Source of the DNA: a virus
Length of the DNA: 44,947 nucleotides
Reading direction: 5' to 3' (one strand)
IMG/VR virus record: IMGVR_UViG_3300033992_000391
Span: 1 to 44,947 of that record
Shown: positions 1 to 35,998 of the stretch, in pieces
Layout: the number at the start of each line of letters is the position of its first letter
Position numbering within the stretch: the first letter of the stretch is position 1
The notes under the pieces: model-generated
What the model saw: the letters and a program-made list of their open reading frames with translations, nothing else
What the model was told of the DNA's origin: nothing
Databases searched by the model: none
Program-made: the position numbers and the translations under genes

Positions 1-127
1 GTATCTCGGAGTGGTCTTGTCCTTAGCGGTGGCACAGTTATGACGGGCGCGGAAGGACTTGCGACGGGCAGGGTTGTCCTTCTTGATCGTCATATTCGGG
101 TCACCGAAGCGGACAATCTTCGTCTTA
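1..127. repeat. 127-bp terminal direct repeat, left copy
   Basis: Identical base for base to 44821-44947. The 80-codon gene on the minus strand runs in frame from here into 44820 and below, which shows that the two ends join. A 127-base overlap is what a de Bruijn assembler with k=127 leaves on a circular contig. A true short terminal repeat of the virion DNA cannot be excluded from sequence alone. Confidence 0.97.
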
Positions 128-222
128 CTGCCGGACTTGACGTACACGGCGGATTTCTTCGGGCCACCCGGAGTACGGAATGGCTTATTTAGTGATACCT
201 TGCGTCCTTTGTAGTCGGCCAT
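1..222 (-). CDS. Conserved small phage protein (partial here; 80 aa across the junction)
   Basis: ATG at 222-220; the frame is open to base 1 and continues at 44820, ending with TGA at 44802-44800, for 80 residues in all. The protein is basic, with a Thr-Pro-Gly-Gly-Pro-Lys stretch near the N-terminus, a FGDPNM motif in the middle, RRKSFRARHNC near residue 55 and a WSC-K-W end. From memory, the FGDPNM...RRKSFRARHNC pattern is a widespread phage family without an assigned function. The last bases are TGGTGA, so its stop overlaps the GTG start of the large terminase (GTGA) and the two are probably translationally coupled. Placement suggests a packaging or head role, but this is inference. Confidence 0.85.
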   Translation of the reverse strand, partial: MADYKGRKVSLNKPFRTPGGPKKSAVYVKSGSKTKIVRFGDPNMTIKKDNPARRKSFRARHNCATAKDKTTPRY

Positions 223-310
223 TGCGGGGGGTCTTTAAAAAAATTACAGATTGGAGGTCTGCCATATCAGGCTCCCACTCGTCATCTTCATCGAGATTGA
301 GTGGAAGCAT
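185..310 (-). CDS. Possible 41-aa acidic protein
   Basis: ATG at 310-308, five bases after the stop of the 43-residue gene, ends with TAA at 187-185. The N-terminal half is acidic (LDEDDEWEPD), the C-terminal half basic. It overlaps the first 38 bases of the next gene in another frame and crosses a run of seven A (237-243; T on the coding strand). The acidic start and tight spacing favour a real gene, the long overlap argues against. Function unknown. Confidence 0.4.
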   Translation of the reverse strand: MLPLNLDEDDEWEPDMADLQSVIFLKTPRNGRLQRTQGITK

Positions 311-315
311 CGGCG

Positions 316-447
316 TTACATCTTTCCCTTCTTCGATCCGTAGGGCTTGAAGCCAGCGCCACGATTCTTGCCGTGCATCGCCTTCTCCATCTTCTCCATA
401 CGTTCGTGCTTCTTGCCGTGTCCGGCTTTGCCACAGGATTTCTTCAT
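316..447 (-). CDS. Small Lys/His/Gly-rich basic protein (43 aa)
   Basis: ATG at 447-445, TAA at 318-316. The product starts MKKSCGKAGHGKKHERMEKMEK and is almost entirely Lys, Gly, His, Met and Arg, so it is probably a nucleic-acid or capsid-interior binding peptide. No membrane segment. A TTGACA box at 484-479 lies 37 nt before the start, matching the spacing seen at other gene-leading promoters of this genome. It sits between the tRNA gene and the genes that lead into terminase. No function is recognised. Confidence 0.7.
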   Translation of the reverse strand: MKKSCGKAGHGKKHERMEKMEKAMHGKNRGAGFKPYGSKKGKM

Positions 448-486
448 TGTATCAGGAAACTACCTACACCTGGGCCACTGTCAAGT

Positions 487-561
487 TGGAGCCTTGGGCC
501 GGAGTCGAACCGGCAACCCCCTGTTTACAAAACAGGCGCACTGCCATTGTGCTACCAAGGC
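487..561 (-). tRNA. tRNA-Thr (anticodon UGU), CCA encoded
   Basis: Read on the minus strand: acceptor GCCTTGG pairs perfectly with CCAAGGC; D stem GCAC/GTGC; anticodon stem CCTGT/ACAGG with loop TTTGTAA, giving anticodon UGU (threonine, ACA); T stem GCCGG/CCGGC with loop TTCGACT. The discriminator base is U and it is followed by a genomically encoded CCA (489-487). All stems are intact, so the tRNA looks functional. It lies inside the late operon and may supplement decoding of ACA/ACN codons. Confidence 0.95.
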
Positions 562-566
562 GTTAA

Positions 567-848
567 CTAAGCCGTCCACTCGGTGGCATCACCAGGCCCG
601 TCCTCGATAGCCATAACCCCGGCTGCCAAGACGTTACCCAAGACCCGATGGAAGTTATCTTCCTTATCACCACCCCCAAAGGAAAGCACCTTCCACTTCC
701 CACTAGGAGCCTGGACGATGATTGCACCCTCGGTGCAGTACGATTTTAAAAGTTTTAAACTAGCCAGTAAAGCCCCTTCCAGCTGCTCGTCCTTGTGGAT
801 AGCCGTCGGGTCTACCTTCTTCTTCCGGCTGCGCTTCTTCTTAGCCAT
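567..848 (-). CDS. Unknown protein with basic N-terminus (93 aa)
   Basis: ATG at 848-846 overlaps the stop of the upstream gene by one base (TAATG), so this start is preferred to a longer in-frame one at 890. The product begins MAKKKRSRKKK, a strongly basic tail, followed by a compact mixed alpha/beta region containing GAIIVQAPSGKWKVLSFGGG. The basic tail suggests nucleic-acid contact. The gene ends five bases before the tRNA. I do not recognise the family. Confidence 0.85.
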   Translation of the reverse strand: MAKKKRSRKKKVDPTAIHKDEQLEGALLASLKLLKSYCTEGAIIVQAPSGKWKVLSFGGGDKEDNFHRVLGNVLAAGVMAIEDGPGDATEWTA

Positions 849-1288
849 TACCAGCGTCCTCCAAACCTGGGGTGCTTGGCCGCTACCCACCTCTGACCAT
901 CAGATCGGAGAGGAACCACCATCCCCTTCACGAAGTTCTTACTGTCCCGCACAAGGACGTTCACATCCTTCTTGGCCTTACCCTCCTCAATCTCGCAGAG
1001 GATAATCCGGGGGTTCACGAACTTACCCTTCACCACCCCAGTCTTCGGCTTGTCGTCAGCCTTAGCCTCCCGCAGCTCCTCAACCACAGGAGCCTCCAGG
1101 CCAGCCTTGCCCTGCATAAACTCAATGCCCTCCTTCGTCCAGTAGATCGGCCACAGATGCTTAGGCCCATTCCGGGGCTTGCGGATCCAGTGCTTACCTT
1201 CCAGCGCCGTCTCACGCAGTCCCTTCAAATCAGCCCTGTTCAGGCCGGTCAATCTAATGACCTCGCTTTCCTTGTAGATATCTTCCAT
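848..1288 (-). CDS. HTH-like two-domain protein, first gene of the late operon (146 aa)
   Basis: ATG at 1288-1286. Residues about 1-60 look like an excisionase/MerR-type winged helix (E-V-I-R-L-T-G-L then W-P-I-Y-W-T-x-E-G). Residues about 80-146 form a beta-rich domain with VNVLVRDSKNFVKGM and a C-terminal RFGGRW, a pattern I have seen in unassigned podophage proteins. It is the first minus-strand gene after the 580-base control region and lies upstream of terminase in the reading direction, so it is one candidate for the missing small terminase or for a late regulator. A TTGACG box lies 36 nt upstream (1324-1319). Confidence 0.85.
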   Translation of the reverse strand: MEDIYKESEVIRLTGLNRADLKGLRETALEGKHWIRKPRNGPKHLWPIYWTKEGIEFMQGKAGLEAPVVEELREAKADDKPKTGVVKGKFVNPRIILCEIEEGKAKKDVNVLVRDSKNFVKGMVVPLRSDGQRWVAAKHPRFGGRW

Positions 1289-1381
1289 ACCTTAAGGAAA
1301 TACAAGTTACCTTGACTCCGTCAATCTGTCTCCCCAGGAGTTATGTCTTCGATTCTCTACGACAATAACCCCTTCCCCCTT

Positions 1382-1418
1382 GGGGGACTGAGGGGGGAGA
1401 GGGGGATTATTAAGGGGG
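1382..1418 (+). other. Possible G-quadruplex (four runs of 5-6 G)
   Basis: Runs GGGGG (1382), GGGGGG (1392), GGGGG (1401) and GGGGG (1414), with loops of 5, 3 and 8 bases. The G-rich strand is the plus strand, which is the template for the late operon. The pattern is seen directly; folding is inferred. Confidence 0.45.
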
Positions 1419-1502
1419 AAATACACCTACCTGTCAAGCCTACCCCATTACGTATTAGATTACCTTATCGTAGATATCATCAACATTCATAGGGCTTATC
1501 CA

Positions 1503-1542
1503 TAGGTCATTAGCACGACTATCCTAGGCCATTAGTACGGCT
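1503..1542. repeat. Two 18-bp direct repeats (TAGGYCATTAGYACGRCT)
   Basis: Copies at 1503-1520 and 1525-1542 differ at three positions and have a 22-bp period, about two helical turns, which suits cooperative protein binding on one face of DNA. They lie in the putative late control region. Confidence 0.6.
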
Positions 1543-1735
1543 TATTGCAAAAAAAGTCCATAGGGGGTAACCCGCTCGGTGTCCGACCCCTCCCCTCCTG
1601 GCTGCTCCCCCCGCCGGGGGTGACGTCGTGGCCGTGCGTCCGACGTTCTATAATATTATATAGAGCTGCCGTCCGATCTTTTATTATAGAATCCTATAGA
1701 AATATTATAAACCGGCTGCACTCCGTATCCAGATT

Positions 1736-1774
1736 CTCACTACACGTCGTATCAGTAAACTCACTACACGTCGT
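1736..1774. repeat. Two perfect 15-bp repeats CTCACTACACGTCGT
   Basis: Copies at 1736-1750 and 1760-1774, period 24 bp. The core ACTACACGT recurs in the palindrome at 2330-2346 in the next intergenic region, so this may be an operator for one regulator. Confidence 0.6.
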
Positions 1775-1869
1775 GTCGTGGGTTATTCATTACAGCAAGT
1801 CCTGGTGTGTACGGATTTTTTGCGACCGCCAAAAACCGATCCGACGAGTAGGCGCTACGTAGGAGGCAC

Positions 1870-1895
1870 AAAAAAGCCCCGGAAGAACCGGGGCT
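1870..1895 (-). terminator. Intrinsic terminator after the 111-aa gene
   Basis: Minus strand: 8-bp GC stem AGCCCCGG/CCGGGGCT with a 5-base loop followed by six T. It closes the 1920-2255 gene. The flanking GGCACAAAAA is shared with the terminators at 2543 and 3510. Confidence 0.9.
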
Positions 1896-1919
1896 GAAAA
1901 GCTGCACGTGGGCTGTTGA

Positions 1920-2255
1920 CTAGATCACACCCATAGTCGCCTTTACCTTGATGTCTTCAACGTTCCACTCGAAGTGGTTATGCACGCAGTAGATGTCGAG
2001 GACGCTGTCTACCTTCTCTTCAGTCTCCTTGAGGCTGTAGGGGGACTCTACGTACATAGAAAACTCGTAGTAGTAGTCGTCGTTAATTTCGTAGTACATA
2101 GAGACTTCCGTCTGGTCACAGATGCGGACTCCCGTCTGATTCGGCCAGATGACGTTGGCGACGACGTCGGGCGTTGTGGTGGCTTTCTTGCCCTCTGCGA
2201 GAGAGCATCGGAAGGTGACAGTTACTTGGTAGGGTTGGAGCGTGGTGTTGTTCAT
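1920..2255 (-). CDS. Unknown small acidic protein (111 aa)
   Basis: ATG at 2255-2253. Acidic and rich in aromatic residues (YYEINDDYYYEF), with alternating hydrophobic patterns that suggest a single beta-rich domain; no Cys motif, signal peptide or membrane segment. It stands as its own transcription unit: a TTGACT box 38 nt before the start (2293-2288), a palindrome further upstream and an intrinsic terminator 25 bases downstream. AAGGA five bases before the ATG is one of the very few Shine-Dalgarno-like sequences in this genome. Possibly a host-directed early protein; no family recognised. Confidence 0.8.
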   Translation of the reverse strand: MNNTTLQPYQVTVTFRCSLAEGKKATTTPDVVANVIWPNQTGVRICDQTEVSMYYEINDDYYYEFSMYVESPYSLKETEEKVDSVLDIYCVHNHFEWNVEDIKVKATMGVI

Positions 2256-2329
2256 AACGTCCTTAAGTGTCTGGAAGGATCGGTAATAGTCAACACCAGG
2301 ATTTTTTGAGCATCTGTAATTATTTTTTA

Positions 2330-2346
2330 ACTACACGTTGTGTAGT
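2330..2346. promoter_or_regulatory. 17-bp palindrome ACTACACGTTGTGTAGT
   Basis: Perfect 7-bp arms (ACTACAC/GTGTAGT) around GTT, about 75 bases upstream of the 111-residue gene. Its left arm matches the repeated ACTACACG of 1736-1774. Likely an operator rather than a terminator, since no T-run follows in either direction. Confidence 0.55.
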
Positions 2347-2477
2347 GTGTTTATTCTTACGTCGTAATTATTTTCCGGATACTGTGATTTTGGGGAGTGC
2401 AGCTTTAGGCCAGGATCGGCGACTTTCGCCGGTCTCAAAAAATCACAAGAGCAGCTTAAAGCAGCTTGGCTTGATCG

Positions 2478-2532
2478 TGCAGCTTTCTGCCTGTGCGTGT
2501 GTGTGCGTGTACCTACCTACCCACTACCTACC
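2478..2532. repeat. Composite intergenic element, copy 1 (GTGCGTGT + CCTA array)
   Basis: GTGCAGCTTTCTGCC, then GTGCGTGTGTGTGCGTGT (2493-2510), then a degenerate CCTA array (2512-2532). The same order of parts recurs at 4549-4720 and 7782-7878. The rest of 2347-2542 holds no gene that I can support. Confidence 0.55.
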
Positions 2533-2542
2533 AAGTAGGCAC

Positions 2543-2566
2543 AAAAAAGGGAGGCGATTGCCTCCC
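2543..2566 (-). terminator. Intrinsic terminator after the 80-aa gene
   Basis: Minus strand: 7-bp stem GGGAGGC/GCCTCCC, 4-base loop, six T. Nearly identical over about 34 bases, including GTAGGCACAAAAA, to the terminator at 3510-3534. Confidence 0.92.
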
Positions 2567-2594
2567 TTGATCGTCGTACTTCTACGCGCCGGAT

Positions 2595-2837
2595 TTACTC
2601 GCTGATAAAATAATCAGAAGGGATGTTTTTGGTAGTAATGTGATAACCCATACGGAGGAGGTTACGTTCTTTATTGGTAAGGTTCTCCATAATGTGAAAA
2701 ACGTCCTCTTCGGATTGTGCATAAAAGTCTGCCTCTTTTCCGGCAGCTTTCCAAGTGTACTTATAACCGATCGGAAAAACATCCCCTTCCCACATATGAA
2801 GGCAACCCATTGCGTCTAGTTTAAGGGTCGAGATCAT
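2595..2837 (-). CDS. Unknown small protein (80 aa)
   Basis: The start is placed at the ATG at 2837-2835, because it overlaps the stop of the 31-residue membrane peptide as ATGA; a longer GTG reading from 2879 would run through that peptide. The product is mixed alpha/beta (KYTWKAAGKEADFYAQSEEDVFHIMENLTNKERNLL) and resembles small phage proteins that carry a modified-residue or cytoplasmic inhibitor role only in size. No family recognised. It shares one transcript with the membrane peptide and ends 28 bases before a strong terminator. Confidence 0.75.
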   Translation of the reverse strand: MISTLKLDAMGCLHMWEGDVFPIGYKYTWKAAGKEADFYAQSEEDVFHIMENLTNKERNLLRMGYHITTKNIPSDYFISE

Positions 2838-2929
2838 AGGGCGAGATACAGAAGGTACAGGAGGTTTGAGATCGCCCACAGACTCAGTCCGATGGAGAAC
2901 CCCAGGATGATTTCTAATAGTGTGTTCAT
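2834..2929 (-). CDS. 31-aa single-span membrane peptide
   Basis: ATG at 2929-2927, TGA at 2836-2834. MNTLLEIILGFSIGLSLWAI then SNLLYLLYLAL: one almost uninterrupted hydrophobic helix with a single acidic residue. It has a complete leader (22 bases including the ATG identical to that of the 174-residue gene) with a TTGATT box 51 nt upstream, and it is ATGA-coupled to the next gene. That context makes it very likely to be expressed. Possible roles are membrane disturbance, superinfection exclusion or inhibition of a host membrane protein; none can be chosen. Confidence 0.75.
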   Translation of the reverse strand: MNTLLEIILGFSIGLSLWAISNLLYLLYLAL

Positions 2930-2980
2930 ATGGTGTGCGTTGTGCGTCTGAGAGTGTGTCCTTCCGGTCCTTGAAATCAA
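2927..2980 (-). promoter_or_regulatory. Early leader, copy A (TTGATT box plus shared 5' leader)
   Basis: TTGATT at 2980-2975, 26 bases, then GACGCACAACGCACACC and the ATATG start. Copy B at 4412-4465 has the same box, the same 26-base spacing and the identical leader, while the 26 bases themselves differ. Conserved spacing with a variable spacer is what a promoter and 5' end would show. Confidence 0.65.
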
Positions 2981-3038
2981 CAGAATAGAGTAAATTGCCT
3001 AATAAACGACAAAACGCCTTATAGCGCCTCCTAGATAG

Positions 3039-3382
3039 GTTTACGGCGATGTTTACTTTGTGAGGGGTAGGGCTAGGGGAAGATCGTCAAAAGGCCTTAG
3101 AATCGATTTGTGACGGCAGCTCATAAAACCCCTGTAAACATTGGGCGGAATGCGTGTCCAGGCCGCCGTCAAGGATTATTTCAGATCAAGGAAAATGTGC
3201 GGGGTGTGAATAACTTCCTAATCATAGGTTCATTACCCAGGATTAGAGGATGTCCGCCGGTTTTTACACATTTTTACAAGTTATATAAGTTGTTGATTAT
3301 CAGTAACTTATGTAAGCACACAAATCGGTTTAGAGACGTGTTTACTGTGTGGTGAAGGGTAGTAGTCGCATAAAGAGTAAAC
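3039..3382. promoter_or_regulatory. GTTTAC-site cluster with AT-rich core, possible origin or operator region
   Basis: GTTTAC occurs at 3039, 3051 and 3340 and its complement GTAAAC at 3134 and 3377, five sites in 344 bases. The AT-rich core 3261-3315 carries TTTTACACA (3262-3270), which fits the relaxed DnaA-box consensus TTWTNCACA, and a repeated AAGTTATATAAG/TAACTTATGTAAG. The 2930-3509 gap has no convincing longer gene. Origin function is inference. Confidence 0.4.
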
Positions 3383-3509
3383 GTCCGCCAGGAGGCACGG
3401 AGGCACGTCTAATGGCGTTTATCTTAATTCAAGGAGAATCGTGCCGGAAATCGTAAAAATATTCCAACGCCTACGGCAGCTGGGTCTCAGATTGGAGAAG
3501 GGTAGGCAC

Positions 3510-3534
3510 AAAAAAAGGGAGGCGACTGCCTCCC
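3510..3534 (-). terminator. Intrinsic terminator after the 17-aa peptide
   Basis: Minus strand: GGGAGGC/GCCTCCC stem, 4-base loop, seven T. Almost the same sequence as the terminator at 2543-2566, so one of the two is probably a copy. Confidence 0.92.
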
Positions 3535-3541
3535 TTGTTGG

Positions 3542-3595
3542 TTACTCCCTACTGAACCAAAGGATAACCAGAACCAACAGTATTGCCAGGATCAC
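3542..3595 (-). CDS. 17-aa hydrophobic peptide
   Basis: GTG at 3595-3593 overlaps the TGA of the upstream gene (GTGA), TAA at 3544-3542. Product MILAILLVLVILWFSRE: one short membrane helix with a charged C-terminus, directly in front of a terminator. It is below usual gene-calling limits. The stop-start overlap and hydrophobic purity support it, the tiny size leaves doubt. It is similar in style to the 31- and 35-residue membrane peptides of this genome. Confidence 0.5.
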   Translation of the reverse strand: MILAILLVLVILWFSRE

Positions 3596-3888
3596 TTGTC
3601 AAACGTGACGCAGTAATGATAACCGCCGACGTAGTAAGCGCGAGAGATCGACGCATCCCTGCACCAGCACTCAAACCCCTTCATTCCCCGGACTTTATTA
3701 AGAAGGGCAAGGGCAGCTTTGTCGTGCGTGTGGCAAGTGTCGCCCTCATAGTCCCAAGAGACGACGACAGAAACCTTATCATTGGTAAACAATTCCATAG
3801 TCGCCTTTACCCTGCTTCCCTTGTGATTCGTCGGTCCCAAGTACTTGGTAGTGATGAGACGTTGCGAGCGTGTGATAATGTCGGCCAT
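3592..3888 (-). CDS. Conserved phage/plasmid protein of the TKYLGPTNxKGSRxKA family (98 aa)
   Basis: ATG at 3888-3886, two bases after the upstream TAA; a longer in-frame reading to 4080 only overlaps the neighbour. The N-terminal part has ITTKYLGPTNHKGSRVKAT, followed by VSVVVSWDYEGDTCHTHDKAALALLNK and a C-terminal YYVGGYHYCVTF. From memory, this signature marks a family of small proteins common on phages and mobile elements, with no known function. Compact beta-rich cytoplasmic protein. Cotranscribed with the 174-residue gene and the 17-residue peptide. Confidence 0.85.
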   Translation of the reverse strand: MADIITRSQRLITTKYLGPTNHKGSRVKATMELFTNDKVSVVVSWDYEGDTCHTHDKAALALLNKVRGMKGFECWCRDASISRAYYVGGYHYCVTFDK

Positions 3889-3889
3889 A

Positions 3890-4414
3890 TTAGGAAAGGA
3901 TCGCCTTAATGCGTTTGGCGGTTTCGAGTGCCGCGTCGTCTTTCTCAATGCAGGCAATGGCAAGGAGTAGATCGGCGACAGGCTTAAGTGCGTCGTGCAG
4001 CTTTTGAATGTTGTTCCCTTCTTGTCCGTGTCCCCTCCGCAAATCCTCAAGTACGCAGGAATACACGTCGAGATCATCAACGTCGATTTGGCAAGGACAC
4101 GTCGTCGAGTCTGCGTCAGTAAAGCAGAACGTGTGGACTACGTTATTGCAGATGTCGTTATGGATCGCACTCGCCTTGTCGCACAAGTCCTTTGCGACCC
4201 TGCTCTTAATACTGTCTTCCATACTGCAAGGCAGGGTAGACGTTACGTGCCTCCCGAATTGGAAGCAGGCGACGAAAACCTTTTCTTCATTGTTGAGGTA
4301 GTCACTCGCCGGGATGCTCGCCCGGTTTGAGTGAAGGCGAGCCACTTGAAAGGCTTCCTCGATTTCGAGGTACTTAAGGTTAAGCGCCTCCGGGTTATTT
4401 TGTGTTTCGGTCAT
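3890..4414 (-). CDS. Unknown helical protein, first gene of an early unit (174 aa)
   Basis: ATG at 4414-4412. Mostly alpha-helical, acidic, with seven scattered Cys, including CPCQIDVDDLD near residue 110, which could be structural or metal binding, although no complete zinc-ribbon spacing is visible. It has leader copy B with a TTGACT box 51 nt upstream. The three genes 4414-3542 form one unit ended by the terminator at 3510. No family recognised; position suggests early takeover functions. Confidence 0.82.
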   Translation of the reverse strand: MTETQNNPEALNLKYLEIEEAFQVARLHSNRASIPASDYLNNEEKVFVACFQFGRHVTSTLPCSMEDSIKSRVAKDLCDKASAIHNDICNNVVHTFCFTDADSTTCPCQIDVDDLDVYSCVLEDLRRGHGQEGNNIQKLHDALKPVADLLLAIACIEKDDAALETAKRIKAILS

Positions 4415-4465
4415 ATGGTGTGCGTTGTGCGTCTCCTATAAGGACACGTCGCCGGGAATAGTCAA
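4412..4465 (-). promoter_or_regulatory. Early leader, copy B (TTGACT box plus shared 5' leader)
   Basis: TTGACT at 4465-4460, 26 bases later GACGCACAACGCACACC and ATATG. A CTTATAGG sits 17 bases after the box, a plausible -10. Same arrangement as copy A at 2927-2980. Confidence 0.65.
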
Positions 4466-4548
4466 CAGGAGATCGTGAGAAACTTTGGACCCATTATCCA
4501 GGCACGACGTGCCGGACGTGTCGCCGGTTTTGGCAAGTTGCGACCACG

Positions 4549-4720
4549 TGCCGGACGGCAGCTCTTATCCAGGATCGGACGGCAGCTCGACGTCGGCCAG
4601 GACGTCGCCGGTTTCGACGCGCCTTCGACGACTCGTCGGCCAGGATCGGACGGCAGCTCCACAAACAAAAAGACACACGTTTGTGCGTGTGTCTGTATAC
4701 CTACCTACCTACCTACCTAC
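4549..4720. repeat. Composite intergenic element, copy 2 with tandem GGACGGCAGCTC repeats
   Basis: CCGGACGGCAGCTC at 4551-4564, then CCAGGATCGGACGGCAGCTC perfectly repeated at 4569-4588 and 4640-4659 (71-bp period), GTGCGTGTGTCTGTATA at 4683-4699 and five CCTA units at 4700-4720, which run into the stop codon of the 141-residue gene. The 4466-4716 gap contains no supportable gene. Also present nearby are two copies of GTCGCCGGTTT. One reverse-oriented GATCGGACGGCAGCTC lies at 1679-1664. Confidence 0.7.
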
Positions 4721-5142
4721 TCCAGCGTACTCCGTGCGAGTTGTGCGAGTTGCCATTCATACCCCTCACTAACCCCTTCCTCCCACGCTGAACAAAGATC
4801 GTCGAGTACCTCTTCTACCTCGTCCGTGTGTTCTCCTCGTTCTGCGTCCGTGTACCACAGTACGTCCTCAAGGAGTTTCGCCGGAGTCATTTCGTCTGCG
4901 TACTCGCCGGAGAGATTGGGCAGACGCACGTCCATATGCGTGTGGTCGCACGATTCGATAGACTCAAGGACGGCACGTGCCTTCTCCTTGTGGTTACGAG
5001 TGCAACGTCCGCCGAACATATCCATTGCGACCCACTCGGCGAACTTGATTCCCTCTGCCCTACCCAGGTTACGTGCCTCGATGATGCATTCATCGACAAT
5101 GGGAGTGCCTTCCGGCACGTCTTCAAGGATCGGATGTCTCAT
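4717..5142 (-). CDS. Unknown acidic helical protein (141 aa)
   Basis: ATG at 5142-5140 overlaps the stop of the upstream gene (ATGA). Highly acidic throughout, especially the C-terminal half (DEVEEVLDDLCSAWEEGVSEGYEW), and predicted to be helical, with one CxxN and a DHTHMD stretch near residue 65. Its TAG lies inside the CCTA array. Acidic early phage proteins often mimic DNA or bind host enzymes, but there is no motif here to decide that. Unknown family. Confidence 0.8.
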   Translation of the reverse strand: MRHPILEDVPEGTPIVDECIIEARNLGRAEGIKFAEWVAMDMFGGRCTRNHKEKARAVLESIESCDHTHMDVRLPNLSGEYADEMTPAKLLEDVLWYTDAERGEHTDEVEEVLDDLCSAWEEGVSEGYEWQLAQLARSTLE

Positions 5143-5411
5143 TTGGCGTTCTTGCGAATGGCGTTCTTAGCGTTCTCGGTCTTGTTGATGAACGAATGCT
5201 CGTCTTCGTTATACTCCTCTTCCTCGACTACCTCGTCGTCGCAGTAGTTGTTAGACGCAGCTTCCTCAAGGAGTTGGTTAAACTCCTCGGTGGAAAGGTT
5301 GCGATAATGTTCCTGTGCCTCCTCCTCTGACATCGCCACCACTTGGTAGCAGATATGCACAGTTTCGGAGATCGTGTACATCGTCGGTTTGGTTTTCTTG
5401 GATTTGCTCAT
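5139..5411 (-). CDS. Unknown acidic protein with Glu-rich stretch (90 aa)
   Basis: ATG at 5411-5409 with the genome's recurrent ATGAGCAAA opening. Basic N-terminus, then a helix-rich acidic centre (SEEEAQEHYRNLSTEEFNQLLEEAA) and an extreme acidic run DDEVVEEEEYNEDEH near residues 60-72. No Shine-Dalgarno; CACACACAACA precedes the ATG. Coupled by ATGA to the 141-residue gene. Function unknown. Confidence 0.82.
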   Translation of the reverse strand: MSKSKKTKPTMYTISETVHICYQVVAMSEEEAQEHYRNLSTEEFNQLLEEAASNNYCDDEVVEEEEYNEDEHSFINKTENAKNAIRKNAK

Positions 5412-5429
5412 TGTTGTGTGTGGGGGAAA

Positions 5430-5804
5430 TTAGATGATGCCATCTAGGACGTTTGCGACCCTAACGTCAATGTCCTTTGAGAAGTATCCTTCAGGACAAG
5501 TGGACACGACGGACGCATAGGCATCGATGTTATGGGCAAGCGCCAGAAGAAGAGAGTTACGTTCTTTTCTGTGGCACGACACAAGCAGCTGGATGATGAC
5601 GTGAATGCGTTTCTCAGTCCAATCGATGTCTGCGTCTTCAAGGTACTCCTTGCCCTGCAAGGCCTCCCAATCACTCAGCCATTTGACTGAGAGATTCTGG
5701 ACTGCGATGTTGGAGAAGTTACGAGTGGCATACGCAACTGCGTGTGCCAGGTCGAGGAGTGCCTTGTCGTGTTCTTGTTGTGTCATAGGAGGGAAGGTGG
5801 ACAT
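5430..5804 (-). CDS. Unknown helical protein (124 aa)
   Basis: ATG at 5804-5802. Predicted all-helical (HDKALLDLAHAVAYATRNF, KRIHVIIQLLVSCHRKERNSLLLALAHNIDAYASVV), with no membrane segment or metal motif. A TTGACT lies 28 nt upstream, inside the end of the upstream gene. No family recognised. Confidence 0.8.
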   Translation of the reverse strand: MSTFPPMTQQEHDKALLDLAHAVAYATRNFSNIAVQNLSVKWLSDWEALQGKEYLEDADIDWTEKRIHVIIQLLVSCHRKERNSLLLALAHNIDAYASVVSTCPEGYFSKDIDVRVANVLDGII

Positions 5805-5824
5805 AGTAGTTAAGCGCCGGACGT

Positions 5825-6067
5825 TCAGTCAATCGTTTTGTAAACGTCCACGCATTCAAGCAGCTCTTCAGGATAACCGACCCATTCATCGCCTTGCAGA
5901 TCGCCTTCCTCGTCGCACGATTCGATTTTCCAATATTCATTCTCGGCGATGACCAACGTGTCGCCGGTCCTCGTAATAGAAATATCCATAATGGTGAAGG
6001 AGGGGTTCCGGGGATCTTCGATGGCAGACAAGTGCCAGGCCTTTTCCGTGTAGTACGTTTTGCTCAT
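5825..6067 (-). CDS. Unknown small acidic protein (80 aa)
   Basis: The ATG at 6067-6065 overlaps the TGA of the upstream gene, and the product begins MSKTYYTEKAW; the longer reading to 6118 is not needed. Beta-rich middle (FTIMDISITRTGDTLVIAENEYWKIE), acidic C-terminus (CDEEGDLQGDEWVGYPEELLECVDVY). Unknown function; part of a run of three genes that all start MSK. Confidence 0.8.
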   Translation of the reverse strand: MSKTYYTEKAWHLSAIEDPRNPSFTIMDISITRTGDTLVIAENEYWKIESCDEEGDLQGDEWVGYPEELLECVDVYKTID

Positions 6068-6258
6068 TTGATTATGGATACGATTTCGTACGCGCCGCCA
6101 TCGCAGAAGTGCTTCCATCCATTATGCCAATCGTTCTCGTCGTAGTCTACCCATTCCGGATTCCTGTCGTCGTTGATGTGCGAAAGCATATCTGCCATCG
6201 TCCAGGTTTCTGTCTTGTTGGTTTCCGTGTCCAACATAACGAATCTCGTTTTGCTCAT
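6064..6258 (-). CDS. Unknown small protein (64 aa)
   Basis: ATG at 6258-6256 (ATGAGCAAA, preceded by AATTCCT) is chosen over longer readings that overlap the upstream gene. MSKTRFVMLDTETNKTETWTMADMLSHINDD is followed by a Trp/Asp-rich part (WVDYDENDWHNGWKHF). Acidic, single domain. Coupled to the next gene by ATGA. No family recognised. Confidence 0.8.
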   Translation of the reverse strand: MSKTRFVMLDTETNKTETWTMADMLSHINDDRNPEWVDYDENDWHNGWKHFCDGGAYEIVSIIK

Positions 6259-6263
6259 AGGAA

Positions 6264-6458
6264 TTATTTCGTGTCGTTGGTTTCCCAATACTTGGTAGCC
6301 AGGTGCTTCTTGTGACAAGCGCCACAGATACAAGCAGACTCTCCTTTGCTTGCGGACGACACGTCGAAAGGGAGTGAGACGTAGACTACGATGTGCGTAC
6401 CAAGCACGTCGCCACAATCGTCGCAGTACTGTACCTCCGGAGATTTGTTTTTGCTCAT
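6264..6458 (-). CDS. Small zinc-ribbon-like protein (64 aa)
   Basis: ATG at 6458-6456, again ATGAGCAAA. Cysteines are arranged as CDDCGD near residue 12 and CICGACHKKH near residue 43, two CxxC-type knuckles about 30 residues apart, the classical layout of a zinc ribbon. Such small proteins often bind nucleic acid or RNA polymerase. Specific target unknown. It is followed within five bases by the 64-residue gene. Confidence 0.85.
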   Translation of the reverse strand: MSKNKSPEVQYCDDCGDVLGTHIVVYVSLPFDVSSASKGESACICGACHKKHLATKYWETNDTK

Positions 6459-6462
6459 AGGA

Positions 6463-6756
6463 TTAGAGAGAGAGTTTCTTGACGTACTTGGTACGCAGCT
6501 TGGCGAGATCGTGTGCGAGTTGGCAGAACGTCTCTGCGTCCTTGGCGTATTGTTTCGCCCACTTCTTGTCTTCCATACTTTTCGGAGAGGTACGCGCCAG
6601 GTCCTCGTAATCCTCCTTGAAGGAGTGGGACAGGTTACTCAACTCTCCGGCCAACTCCTCTGCGACGTGCAGGACGTTGACCATCGTGTCGATGCGAGTG
6701 GGCATATCTCCGCCCACCTTGTTGATAACCTCGAACAGCAGCTGATTGGTATTCAT
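6463..6756 (-). CDS. Unknown helical protein (97 aa)
   Basis: ATG at 6756-6754; the upstream extension of this frame overlaps the next gene and is low-complexity, so it is discarded. All-alpha (LLFEVINKVGGDMPTRIDTMVNVLHVAEELAGELSNL, then WAKQYAKDAETFCQLAHDLAKLRTKYVKKLSL), probably a helical bundle or coiled coil. The ATG is preceded by AATACACAT, no Shine-Dalgarno. Unknown. Confidence 0.8.
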   Translation of the reverse strand: MNTNQLLFEVINKVGGDMPTRIDTMVNVLHVAEELAGELSNLSHSFKEDYEDLARTSPKSMEDKKWAKQYAKDAETFCQLAHDLAKLRTKYVKKLSL

Positions 6757-6784
6757 ATGTGTATTATTGGGTCCGTGTGATGGG

Positions 6785-7552
6785 TCAGATAACTTTGTAC
6801 ATCGAGTGCGACAAGGCAGACTCGACGACGTAACAGTTGAGTCCGTTTGCGATATCGACGCAGGCATCGAACAGGAAGAACATCGCACGTGCGTACTGCA
6901 CGTCTACCTCACTCCTTGACTGCACGTTGATCGTGTAATGTCCGTCCGTGTAATCATCCGGCAGCTCGACGTGAAGATATCCTCCGGCGATATGGGCGGA
7001 CGTAATACGTTCCAACTCCTTCTCGATTTCGATATTGTACGTAACCTTGTTCTTGCGACGAATAGTAACCATACCTCCGCCAAGGGAACGTCCTTCTCCT
7101 TCCGGCGAGATATGGACTGCGACACCATCGTACTCCAGGTCGCACATAACGTCGAAGGTGTATTCGCCTACTTTGACTTTCTGGATAACACGTTCGACGA
7201 AACAGGTACGCGCCGCCAGAAGCACGTCCTTAGTGACGTTGCATCGAGGAGCATAGAGCATATTGTTGAGTGCGTCGTAGATGTTGTCACGACGTACTGC
7301 GAGAACGTCCTTACGAATGTGGGTCTGCATCATAGTACGCACGGAGAAGTACTCATTCCGTGCGAGAGTGAGTTTCTGCTCTGCGTCCTCCAGGTCCTTC
7401 TTGCCTCCGTTGCGAGTGCGTCCTGACGGCAGTTTGATGGAGGAGGAGATCGCATTGCGGAATGCACTCGCCTCGTTGTGCCTGTCGTTAGCGCCTTTGT
7501 GGGCCTCGATGAAGGCGAGCGTATCGACGTTGAGTTTGATGATGTGTTTCAT
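6785..7552 (-). CDS. Unknown two-part protein (255 aa)
   Basis: ATG at 7552-7550, the first after the promoter gap, with a TTGACG box 54 nt upstream and AGCACACAT before the ATG. Residues about 1-110 are helical with a basic stretch (KLPSGRTRNGGKKDLEDAEQKLTLARNEY); residues about 125-220 are beta-rich (VKVGEYTFDVMCDLEYDGVAVHISPEGEG, VTIRRKNKVTYNIEIEKELERIT). It is the largest unknown protein of the early block. The GEYTFDVMCDLEYDG stretch faintly recalls GERTFDVNVSISYYW of the 95-residue plus-strand gene at 16988, which may be chance. No family recognised. Confidence 0.83.
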   Translation of the reverse strand: MKHIIKLNVDTLAFIEAHKGANDRHNEASAFRNAISSSIKLPSGRTRNGGKKDLEDAEQKLTLARNEYFSVRTMMQTHIRKDVLAVRRDNIYDALNNMLYAPRCNVTKDVLLAARTCFVERVIQKVKVGEYTFDVMCDLEYDGVAVHISPEGEGRSLGGGMVTIRRKNKVTYNIEIEKELERITSAHIAGGYLHVELPDDYTDGHYTINVQSRSEVDVQYARAMFFLFDACVDIANGLNCYVVESALSHSMYKVI

Positions 7553-7614
7553 ATGTGTGCTGGGTGGGAAGGCACACACAGAATCAGAACGTCAGGCCAT
7601 CGTCAACAGCAGAG
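7553..7614 (-). promoter_or_regulatory. Promoter gap upstream of the 255-aa gene
   Basis: Contains TGTTGACGAT (TTGACG at 7606-7601), 54 nt before the ATG, similar to TGTTGACTATT upstream of the genes at 2255 and 4414. No clear -10. GTGTGTGCC and CAGCACACAT lie in the leader. Confidence 0.5.
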
Positions 7615-7776
7615 TTAATCTTTTTTATATATCACTCGGAGTGCCGGTTTAGCCAGGTCGGAGAGTGGCAGCACGTGCTTGTGGACCCACTCTATTGCAT
7701 CGTGCCTATCCCCTGATCGTAACGCCAGGACACGGACGAGCAAATCGTAGTCATACGTCGTAAGGCCGGTCTTGGA
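7615..7776 (-). pseudogene. Start-less second copy of the YDY-DAIEWV domain
   Basis: An open frame ending with TAA at 7617-7615 encodes YDYDLLVRVLALRSGDRHDAIEWVHKHVLPLSD, clearly related to YDYWKLVEVCMRLHDESMEDAIEWVEYNILGLND of the gene just upstream (92 residues, ends at 7875). No ATG or plausible start precedes it in frame. The stretch between the two copies is a GTAGG/GGTAGG array in which the frame of the first copy ends. Either a two-domain protein has been broken by an indel in the array, or the second domain is reached by frameshifting, or this is a decayed duplicate. Confidence 0.55.
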
Positions 7777-7781
7777 TTGCC

Positions 7782-7878
7782 GGACGGCAGCTCCCTCTGC
7801 GCCACGTACACGTGCGTGTCTACCTACCCAGCATACCTTATGCCTACCTACCCTACCTACCCTACCTACCTTGCCTAC
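7782..7878. repeat. Composite element, copy 3, with GTAGG array between paralogous domains
   Basis: GGACGGCAGCTC (7782-7793), GTGCGTGTCTACCTACC (7812-7828) and a CCTAC/CCTACC array up to 7878; on the coding strand it reads GGTAGGTAGGG repeatedly. Beyond it lie two imperfect copies of GTACGACGCAAG. The order of parts matches copies at 2478 and 4549. Confidence 0.65.
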
Positions 7879-8153
7879 CTCTTGCGTCGTACCTTTCTGC
7901 CTACCTTGCGTCGTACCCTTGGGGGCAAGCCTACCTCTGGGTAATGTACCCCGAAGTAGGTTTCGATGCTGTCGTTGAGACCCAAGATGTTGTACTCTAC
8001 CCATTCGATTGCATCCTCCATAGACTCGTCGTGCAGACGCATACATACCTCGACGAGTTTCCAATAGTCATAGATGATGTACCCATCACGTCGTTGCCGG
8101 TGGATCGCCTTGTCGTATTCCTTTGCTGGCTCGATGCGAATGTAGTTGGGCAT
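7875..8153 (-). CDS. YDY-DAIEWV domain protein (92 aa), first of a tandem pair
   Basis: ATG at 8153-8151. The domain (residues about 25-75) contains IIYDYWKLVEVCMRLHDESMEDAIEWVEYN. The C-terminus is a basic repeat (RVRRKVGRKVRRKR) translated from the start of the GTAGG array, which looks like translation of repeat DNA rather than an evolved domain. A second, start-less copy of the domain follows at 7615-7776 in another frame. Thirteen bases separate it from the cytosine methyltransferase gene upstream. Unknown family. Confidence 0.7.
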   Translation of the reverse strand: MPNYIRIEPAKEYDKAIHRQRRDGYIIYDYWKLVEVCMRLHDESMEDAIEWVEYNILGLNDSIETYFGVHYPEVGLPPRVRRKVGRKVRRKR

Positions 8154-35809: not shown

Positions 35810-35998
35810 TTATTTGGTCGGTAGGGAGATTTTGAGACGGGCGAGTTCGGCCTTCAGTTCAGCCTCGGTGGGCTTGTTGATCAGGGTTAGTTTTCCCCAG
35901 TACTTGCCGCCAGTAGGGAACTCACGATAGCCAAGGCAGGATTTGTCCTTAACAAAGGCGTTCCAGCCAGTAGCGATGTTGATAGGTTCGGTAGCCAT
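35810..35998 (-). CDS. Unknown small tail-region protein (62 aa)
   Basis: ATG at 35998-35996. Compact, basic C-terminus (TEAELKAELARLKISLPTK), N-terminal beta part with GYREFPTGGKYWGKLTLI. Possibly a small structural or chaperone protein for the neighbouring tail genes. Unknown. Confidence 0.75.
   Translation of the reverse strand: MATEPINIATGWNAFVKDKSCLGYREFPTGGKYWGKLTLINKPTEAELKAELARLKISLPTK

Follow-up and report, generated by a model that had tools for sequence, protein, structure and literature searches.

Repeated intergenic words in an uncultured tailed phage: two putative terminator-promoter cassettes and a probably coding relative

Three clusters of repeated short words in a phage genome raise the question of whether they are copies of one non-coding element, as had been proposed from the sequence, and what such an element might do. 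The stretch of DNA analyzed (hereafter the window) comprises 44,947 bases and is a complete IMG/VR virus record (IMGVR_UViG_3300033992_000391). Contig L086 is identical to window positions 1-4865 and bridges to the other end of the window, which it overlaps by 127 bases; the genome map is therefore circular. The genome encodes a terminase (phrog_2), a phrog_1328 head protein, Erf and exonuclease VIII homologues, a DnaC-like loader, RusA, and C5 and Dam-type methyltransferases, while neither an integrase nor a repressor was recognized among about 40 proteins scanned (a subset of the ORFs). A near-identity search of the left 12 kb against a named-phage collection gave no match, the best named matches of the head protein and terminase included no T4-like record, and the head protein, used for a host search, had no match in bacterial and archaeal genomes. 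Relatives were gathered from viral contigs by means of the head protein and the early protein 848-1288; the early protein 6785-7552, used as a query in viral contigs, found none. The clade thus gathered is one of uncultured tailed phages with no close cultured relative. The tetranucleotide CATG is missing from the window (0 observed vs about 184 expected), and its coding DNA is also poor in several further palindromes; CATG is likewise absent or almost so in the examined portions of L123, L124, and L127.

Repeat words and their genomic setting

Exact matching placed GGACGGCAGCTC at 4553-4564, 4577-4588, 4648-4659, and 7782-7793, with a reversed copy at 1663-1674, and CCAGGATCGGACGGCAGCTC at 4569 and 4640 (71 bp apart). 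The GTGCGTGT word was found at 2493, 2503, 4683, and 7812, and once more within a gene at 3724, and CCTACCTACC arrays occupy 2512-2532, 4700-4721, and 7819-7870, beyond which the window holds a single near match (one mismatch) at 35816. These matches bear out the order of parts (motif, GTGCGTGT, array) and the coordinates given in the original prediction, together with its repeated 12-base core, the CCAGGATCGGACGGCAGCTC pair at 71-bp spacing and the reversed core. The repeats are real and well beyond chance: the 12-mer with at most two mismatches has 14 matches vs 5.2 expected and CCTACCTACC with at most one mismatch has 11 vs 1.9, numbers reached in none of 100 shuffles, and GTGCGTGT by itself is marginal (5 vs 1.6 expected; reached in 4 of 100 shuffles). 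They do not, however, constitute a single three-copy non-coding element. Since the genes on both sides are encoded on the minus strand, the feature must be read on that strand.

Read in this way, copy 1 consists of a terminator (AAGGGAGGCAATCGCCTCCCTT-TTTTGTGCC), a TAGG array, TACACGCACACACACGCAC, AGCTGC sites, CCTGG, TTGAC, and the start of gene 1920-2255. The predicted intrinsic terminator of the upstream unit (2547..2568, minus strand) has a 9-bp stem followed by a T run, with the tail TTTTTTGTGCC; its segment folds on the minus strand with a z of -6.6, and the hairpin is retained in eight aligned phages despite differing stem letters. Immediately past it lies the TAGG array (2512..2534, minus strand), which is found at the same position in L124, L127, L137, L146, L158, L122, and L125. 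A CACACGCAC tract follows at 2493..2510 (minus strand), and then four AGCTGC sites on the same strand (2484-2479, 2466-2461, 2456-2451, and 2404-2399), one pair of which has a 10-bp spacing and is found again in relatives. The next unit has its TTGAC promoter-like box at 2289..2293 (minus strand), with CCTGG ahead of it.

Copy 2 opens at the gene 4717-5142 stop codon and continues with (TAGG)5, AGACACACG-loop-CGTGTGTCT-TTTTG, three GAGCTGCCGTCC words, CCTGG, TTGAC, and the start of gene 3890-4414. Its five-unit array (4699..4720, minus strand), which begins with that stop codon, is present also in L124, L127, L146, and L158. The predicted intrinsic terminator (4671..4694, minus strand) reads AGACACACG-CACAAA-CGTGTGTCT-TTTTG; in L146 both sides of the stem are changed (AGGCACACG/CGTGTGCCT) and the pairing is kept, a compensatory A-T to G-C exchange, and array and hairpin together give a minus-strand fold z of -2.6. 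The GAGCTGCCGTCC words at 4659-4648, 4588-4577, and 4564-4553 (span 4553..4659, minus strand) are interspersed with CCTGG words, and the TTGAC promoter-like box of gene 3890-4414 lies at 4461..4465 (minus strand). The GTGCGTGT stretch of copy 2 noted earlier forms an arm of the terminator hairpin and is therefore not equivalent across copies. The array intervals of both copy 1 and copy 2 vary in length among relatives without preserving a reading frame.

Conservation and orientation of the cassettes

The cassette vocabulary was found in about 15 related uncultured phages with its orientation unchanged. Across the intergenic regions of the window and of seven relatives, the words show strong enrichment and strand bias: GGTAGGTA occurs 65 times forward and 3 times in reverse (0.5 expected), ACGCACAC 17 times forward and never in reverse, AGCTGCCG 19 times vs 5, and the tail TTTTTTGT 21 times vs once. 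Among 46 TAGG clusters, 27 are no more than 80 nt from a detected terminator, as compared with 3.8% of random positions, and 11 of the 19 that lie away from terminators belong to the copy 3 gene pair described below. In L121, L128, L141, and L145, arrays stand both before and after terminators; AGCTGC is almost missing from L121, and identical words occur in the relative L123, whose GC content is 41%. Some terminators have no array, among them two of the same type in the window at 3515..3536 and 1875..1895 (both minus strand). The genes around the cassettes change: copy 1 keeps its location while the upstream families vary (F5, F6, and F12), as do the downstream ones (F9, F1, and F13), and copy 2 has a constant upstream family (F3) followed by F4, F8, or F2. 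In scans limited to exact matches, which would miss diverged copies elsewhere, the composite strings occurred in few of 2.9 million viral contigs, the placeable ones being clade members, and the terminator-plus-array string had no match in 84,980 bacterial and archaeal genomes; a literature search for the TAGG-array string in phage papers returned nothing. The composite is thus shared by related phages and was not met in the cellular genomes searched. With all placed copies falling within the clade, the mobile repeat that had been envisaged gains no direct support, though the cassette does occupy gene-swapping junctions.

Promoter-like boxes were called by the TTGAC word as the sole criterion, and this word was present in 18 of 35 post-terminator regions and in 36% of control windows. 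Where related phages carry copies 1 and 2, the box lies 178-255 nt past the terminator; it follows every copy 1 and copy 2 cassette of the window, L124, L127, L146, and L158, also follows copy 1 in L137 and the array cassette in L163, and is lacking in the array cassettes of L120, L122, L123, and L125. Concerning the leaders, many are rich in CAC and show no clear Shine-Dalgarno sequence, and a 24-base start-region leader, TCATATGGTGTGCGTTGTGCGTCT, is identical at 2926-2949 and 4411-4434, ahead of two different genes.

Copy 3 and the overlapping genes A and B

The intergenic location claimed for all three copies holds for copies 1 and 2 and fails for copy 3 (array, CACACG tract, and GAGCTGCCGTCC; 7782..7870, minus strand), which overlaps two genes. 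Gene A (7875..8153, minus strand) encodes 92 amino acids with a basic KVRRKVGRKVRRKR tail, and its 3' end enters the copy 3 array, whereas gene B, a paralogue of A (about 7615..8004, minus strand), contains copy 3, its frame being open from an ATG within A. The two genes overlap in different frames, and that of gene B has no stop across the array and the GAGCTGCCGTCC of copy 3. Three TAGG units in succession place a stop in every frame; copy 3 arrays escape this, and the copy 2 array does not. In six distinct sequences, the window among them, the distance from the EWVEYN motif of A to the YDYDLLV-type motif of B takes six different lengths (335, 233, 257, 296, 251, and 245), all of which are 2 modulo 3. 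In L123, gene B is solitary, starts at an ATG of its own, and has a similar N-terminus, VKICWVGRYAEV. Codon-position counts in the copy 3 array, when summed, vary least at second positions; because first and third positions do not differ, they lend weak support to coding. Since the reading frame stays open across the array and is preserved in all six sequences, we consider it quite likely that copy 3 is coding, by way of an internal start or a frameshift; as a relative of the cassette lying within genes A and B, it is probably translated. With one of the three probably coding, the locus is a warning case for look-alike repeats.

Possible function and comparison with known systems

Given the presence, order, and orientation of the cassettes, their link to predicted terminators, their conservation, and the exchange of flanking families, we favor, with moderate confidence, the reading of copies 1 and 2 as control cassettes that join a terminator to a promoter and carry oriented candidate DNA-binding sites, which agrees with the earlier suggestion of a regulator array between genes. 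Weighing against it are the array-less terminators, the near absence of AGCTGC from L121, and the TTGAC counts given above, including the array cassettes that lack the box. The cassettes would lie in the early region of a tailed phage, transcribed leftward (minus strand), where the predicted hairpin would end one transcription unit and the next would start at the TTGAC promoter-like box about 180-255 nt further. Between hairpin and box stand the CACACG tract and, along the direction of transcription, several GAGCTGCCGTCC/AGCTGC sites; the TAGG array comes after the hairpin in copy 1 and before it in copy 2, and a CAC-rich leader lies past the box. The GAGCTGCCGTCC/AGCTGC sites, including the 10-bp-spaced pairs, may bind a phage or host protein, which could tune the next promoter or block read-through, and the common junctions might assist the annealing and exonuclease proteins of the phage in gene swapping. 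As to the TAGG array, our guess is that it aids termination at the level of DNA or nascent RNA and changes its length by slippage. A bolder version, in which TAGG/UAGG-flanked terminators and oriented 12-mers form a novel kind of phage transcription switch, with joint binding by phage proteins setting read-through and re-initiation at the boundaries of early-region units, strikes us as speculative and unlikely.

The RNA element that had been considered possible is reduced to the predicted intrinsic terminators, outside which minus-strand folding is at the level of shuffled sequence (z of -0.6 to +1.5), the array and words of copy 1 scoring +0.7 to -0.6 and the copy 2 words +0.7 to -0.4; the plus strand of copy 1 gives -2.8, including the same terminator palindrome. 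Nor did Rfam offer a known RNA family, tRNA-Thr being its sole match in the window, and a TRAP-type site was set aside since its spacing agrees neither with the period of 4 in the array nor with 1 nt between UAGs. The arrays and words might nevertheless act in nascent RNA, as a UAGG two-tier G-quadruplex or a TRAP-like protein site controlling read-through into the next unit, and both the occurrence of arrays on either side of terminators and the 65:3 strand bias are consistent with this, as is the copy 2 array in terms of calculated energy (-4.2 kcal/mol with the G-quadruplex option vs -0.6 without). However, the same option adds nothing in copy 1 (-1.5 either way) and little in copy 3, no structure beyond the terminator appears, and the copy 1 array, being downstream of its terminator, would be missing from the terminated RNA, all of which makes this explanation unlikely.

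Silencing at the DNA level has a precedent in the stoperators of cluster A mycobacteriophages, short asymmetric intergenic sites arranged along transcription that number more than 20 in L5 (PMC9283540). If GAGCTGCCGTCC were such an operator, a phage repressor bound to it would block elongation, and the sites are indeed asymmetric, intergenic, and co-oriented with transcription (four of five in the window, with one reversed; 19:5 for AGCTGCCG in the clade), while protein 848-1288 weakly matches an excisionase-like winged helix. Yet only five exact sites are present, several of them clustered at short spacing beside predicted terminators and promoter-like boxes, one of the four co-oriented sites falls within gene B, and the proteins scanned yielded no recognizable integrase or repressor, so we hold a stoperator role to be quite improbable. 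Neutral drift, by which slippage and word bias arising from restriction-site avoidance would fill intergenic DNA with functionless short words, would accommodate the strong palindrome avoidance seen for CATG, the differing array unit counts of close relatives, and the word-rich intergenic DNA of certain GC-rich relatives. It is at odds with the strict orientation and constant position beside terminators and with the same words in the 41% GC relative L123, and we regard it as improbable; palindrome-word bias is insufficient as the entire explanation because AGCT is avoided in the coding DNA of the window and enriched in its intergenic DNA.

The combination of a terminator and a promoter at gene-shuffling junctions is familiar mainly from T4-like phages. 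Under the cassette reading favored above, an uncultured tailed-phage clade would possess a lineage-specific, conserved intergenic control vocabulary built on this T4-like terminator-plus-promoter logic. PeSLs are described as composite promoter-terminator motifs of T4-like phages (PMC4503421, citing Arbiol 2010 and Comeau 2014), and they share with our cassettes a terminator stem-loop between genes and a location at gene-shuffling junctions; where PeSLs have a promoter, the cassettes have a promoter-like box, conserved in copies 1 and 2 of the nearer relatives. The cassettes differ in the distance of about 200 nt between terminator and box, in the additional oriented 12-mers, CACACG tract, and TAGG array, and in the phage genome that carries them, which is about 45 kb long with a phrog_2 terminase and phrog_1328 head protein and is not that of a T4-like myovirus. 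SAS/ESAS repeats of cluster K mycobacteriophages, which are 13 bp long, asymmetric, and specific to a lineage, lie near genes of differing families, with none to few in host genomes (PMC3203893); they resemble the present words in asymmetry, lineage specificity, and neighborhood but sit at the start codon, whereas the AGCTGC/12-mer sites lie about 130-250 nt upstream of the start and well upstream of the TTGAC box. PeSLs, stoperators, and SAS are nearest in kind, though the cassettes do not agree in full with the definition of any of them.

The reverse-oriented GAGCTGCCGTCC (1663..1674, plus strand) belongs to the control region upstream of gene 848-1288, and 12-mer variants in this orientation occur in the matching region of L124, L127, L137, and L158. 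Also present in this region (1288-1920), and matched by counterparts in relatives, are TATAATATTTC...TATAATAAA units, several copies of ACTACACGTCGT, and a promoter-like leader, TTGACA...TTAATAATCCCC. The structural model of protein 848-1288 (mean pLDDT 79, pTM 0.45) combines a winged helix resembling that of excisionases in its N-terminal part with an OB-like C-terminal half, both weakly matched, and the Foldseek match to the excisionase 2kvv has an E of 0.027; this small conserved protein is a candidate binder of the 12-mer, offered as a lead only. In three relatives, CCTACCTACC stands in the opposite orientation shortly upstream of an ATG (L122, 8382-8391; L125, 3669-3678; L161, 3607-3616). 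Finally, the lengthy conserved non-coding region at 2880-3590, with its GTTTACTG/CAGTAAAC words and a DnaA-box-like TTATTCACA (TTATACACA in L124, L127, and L146), is a candidate replication origin.
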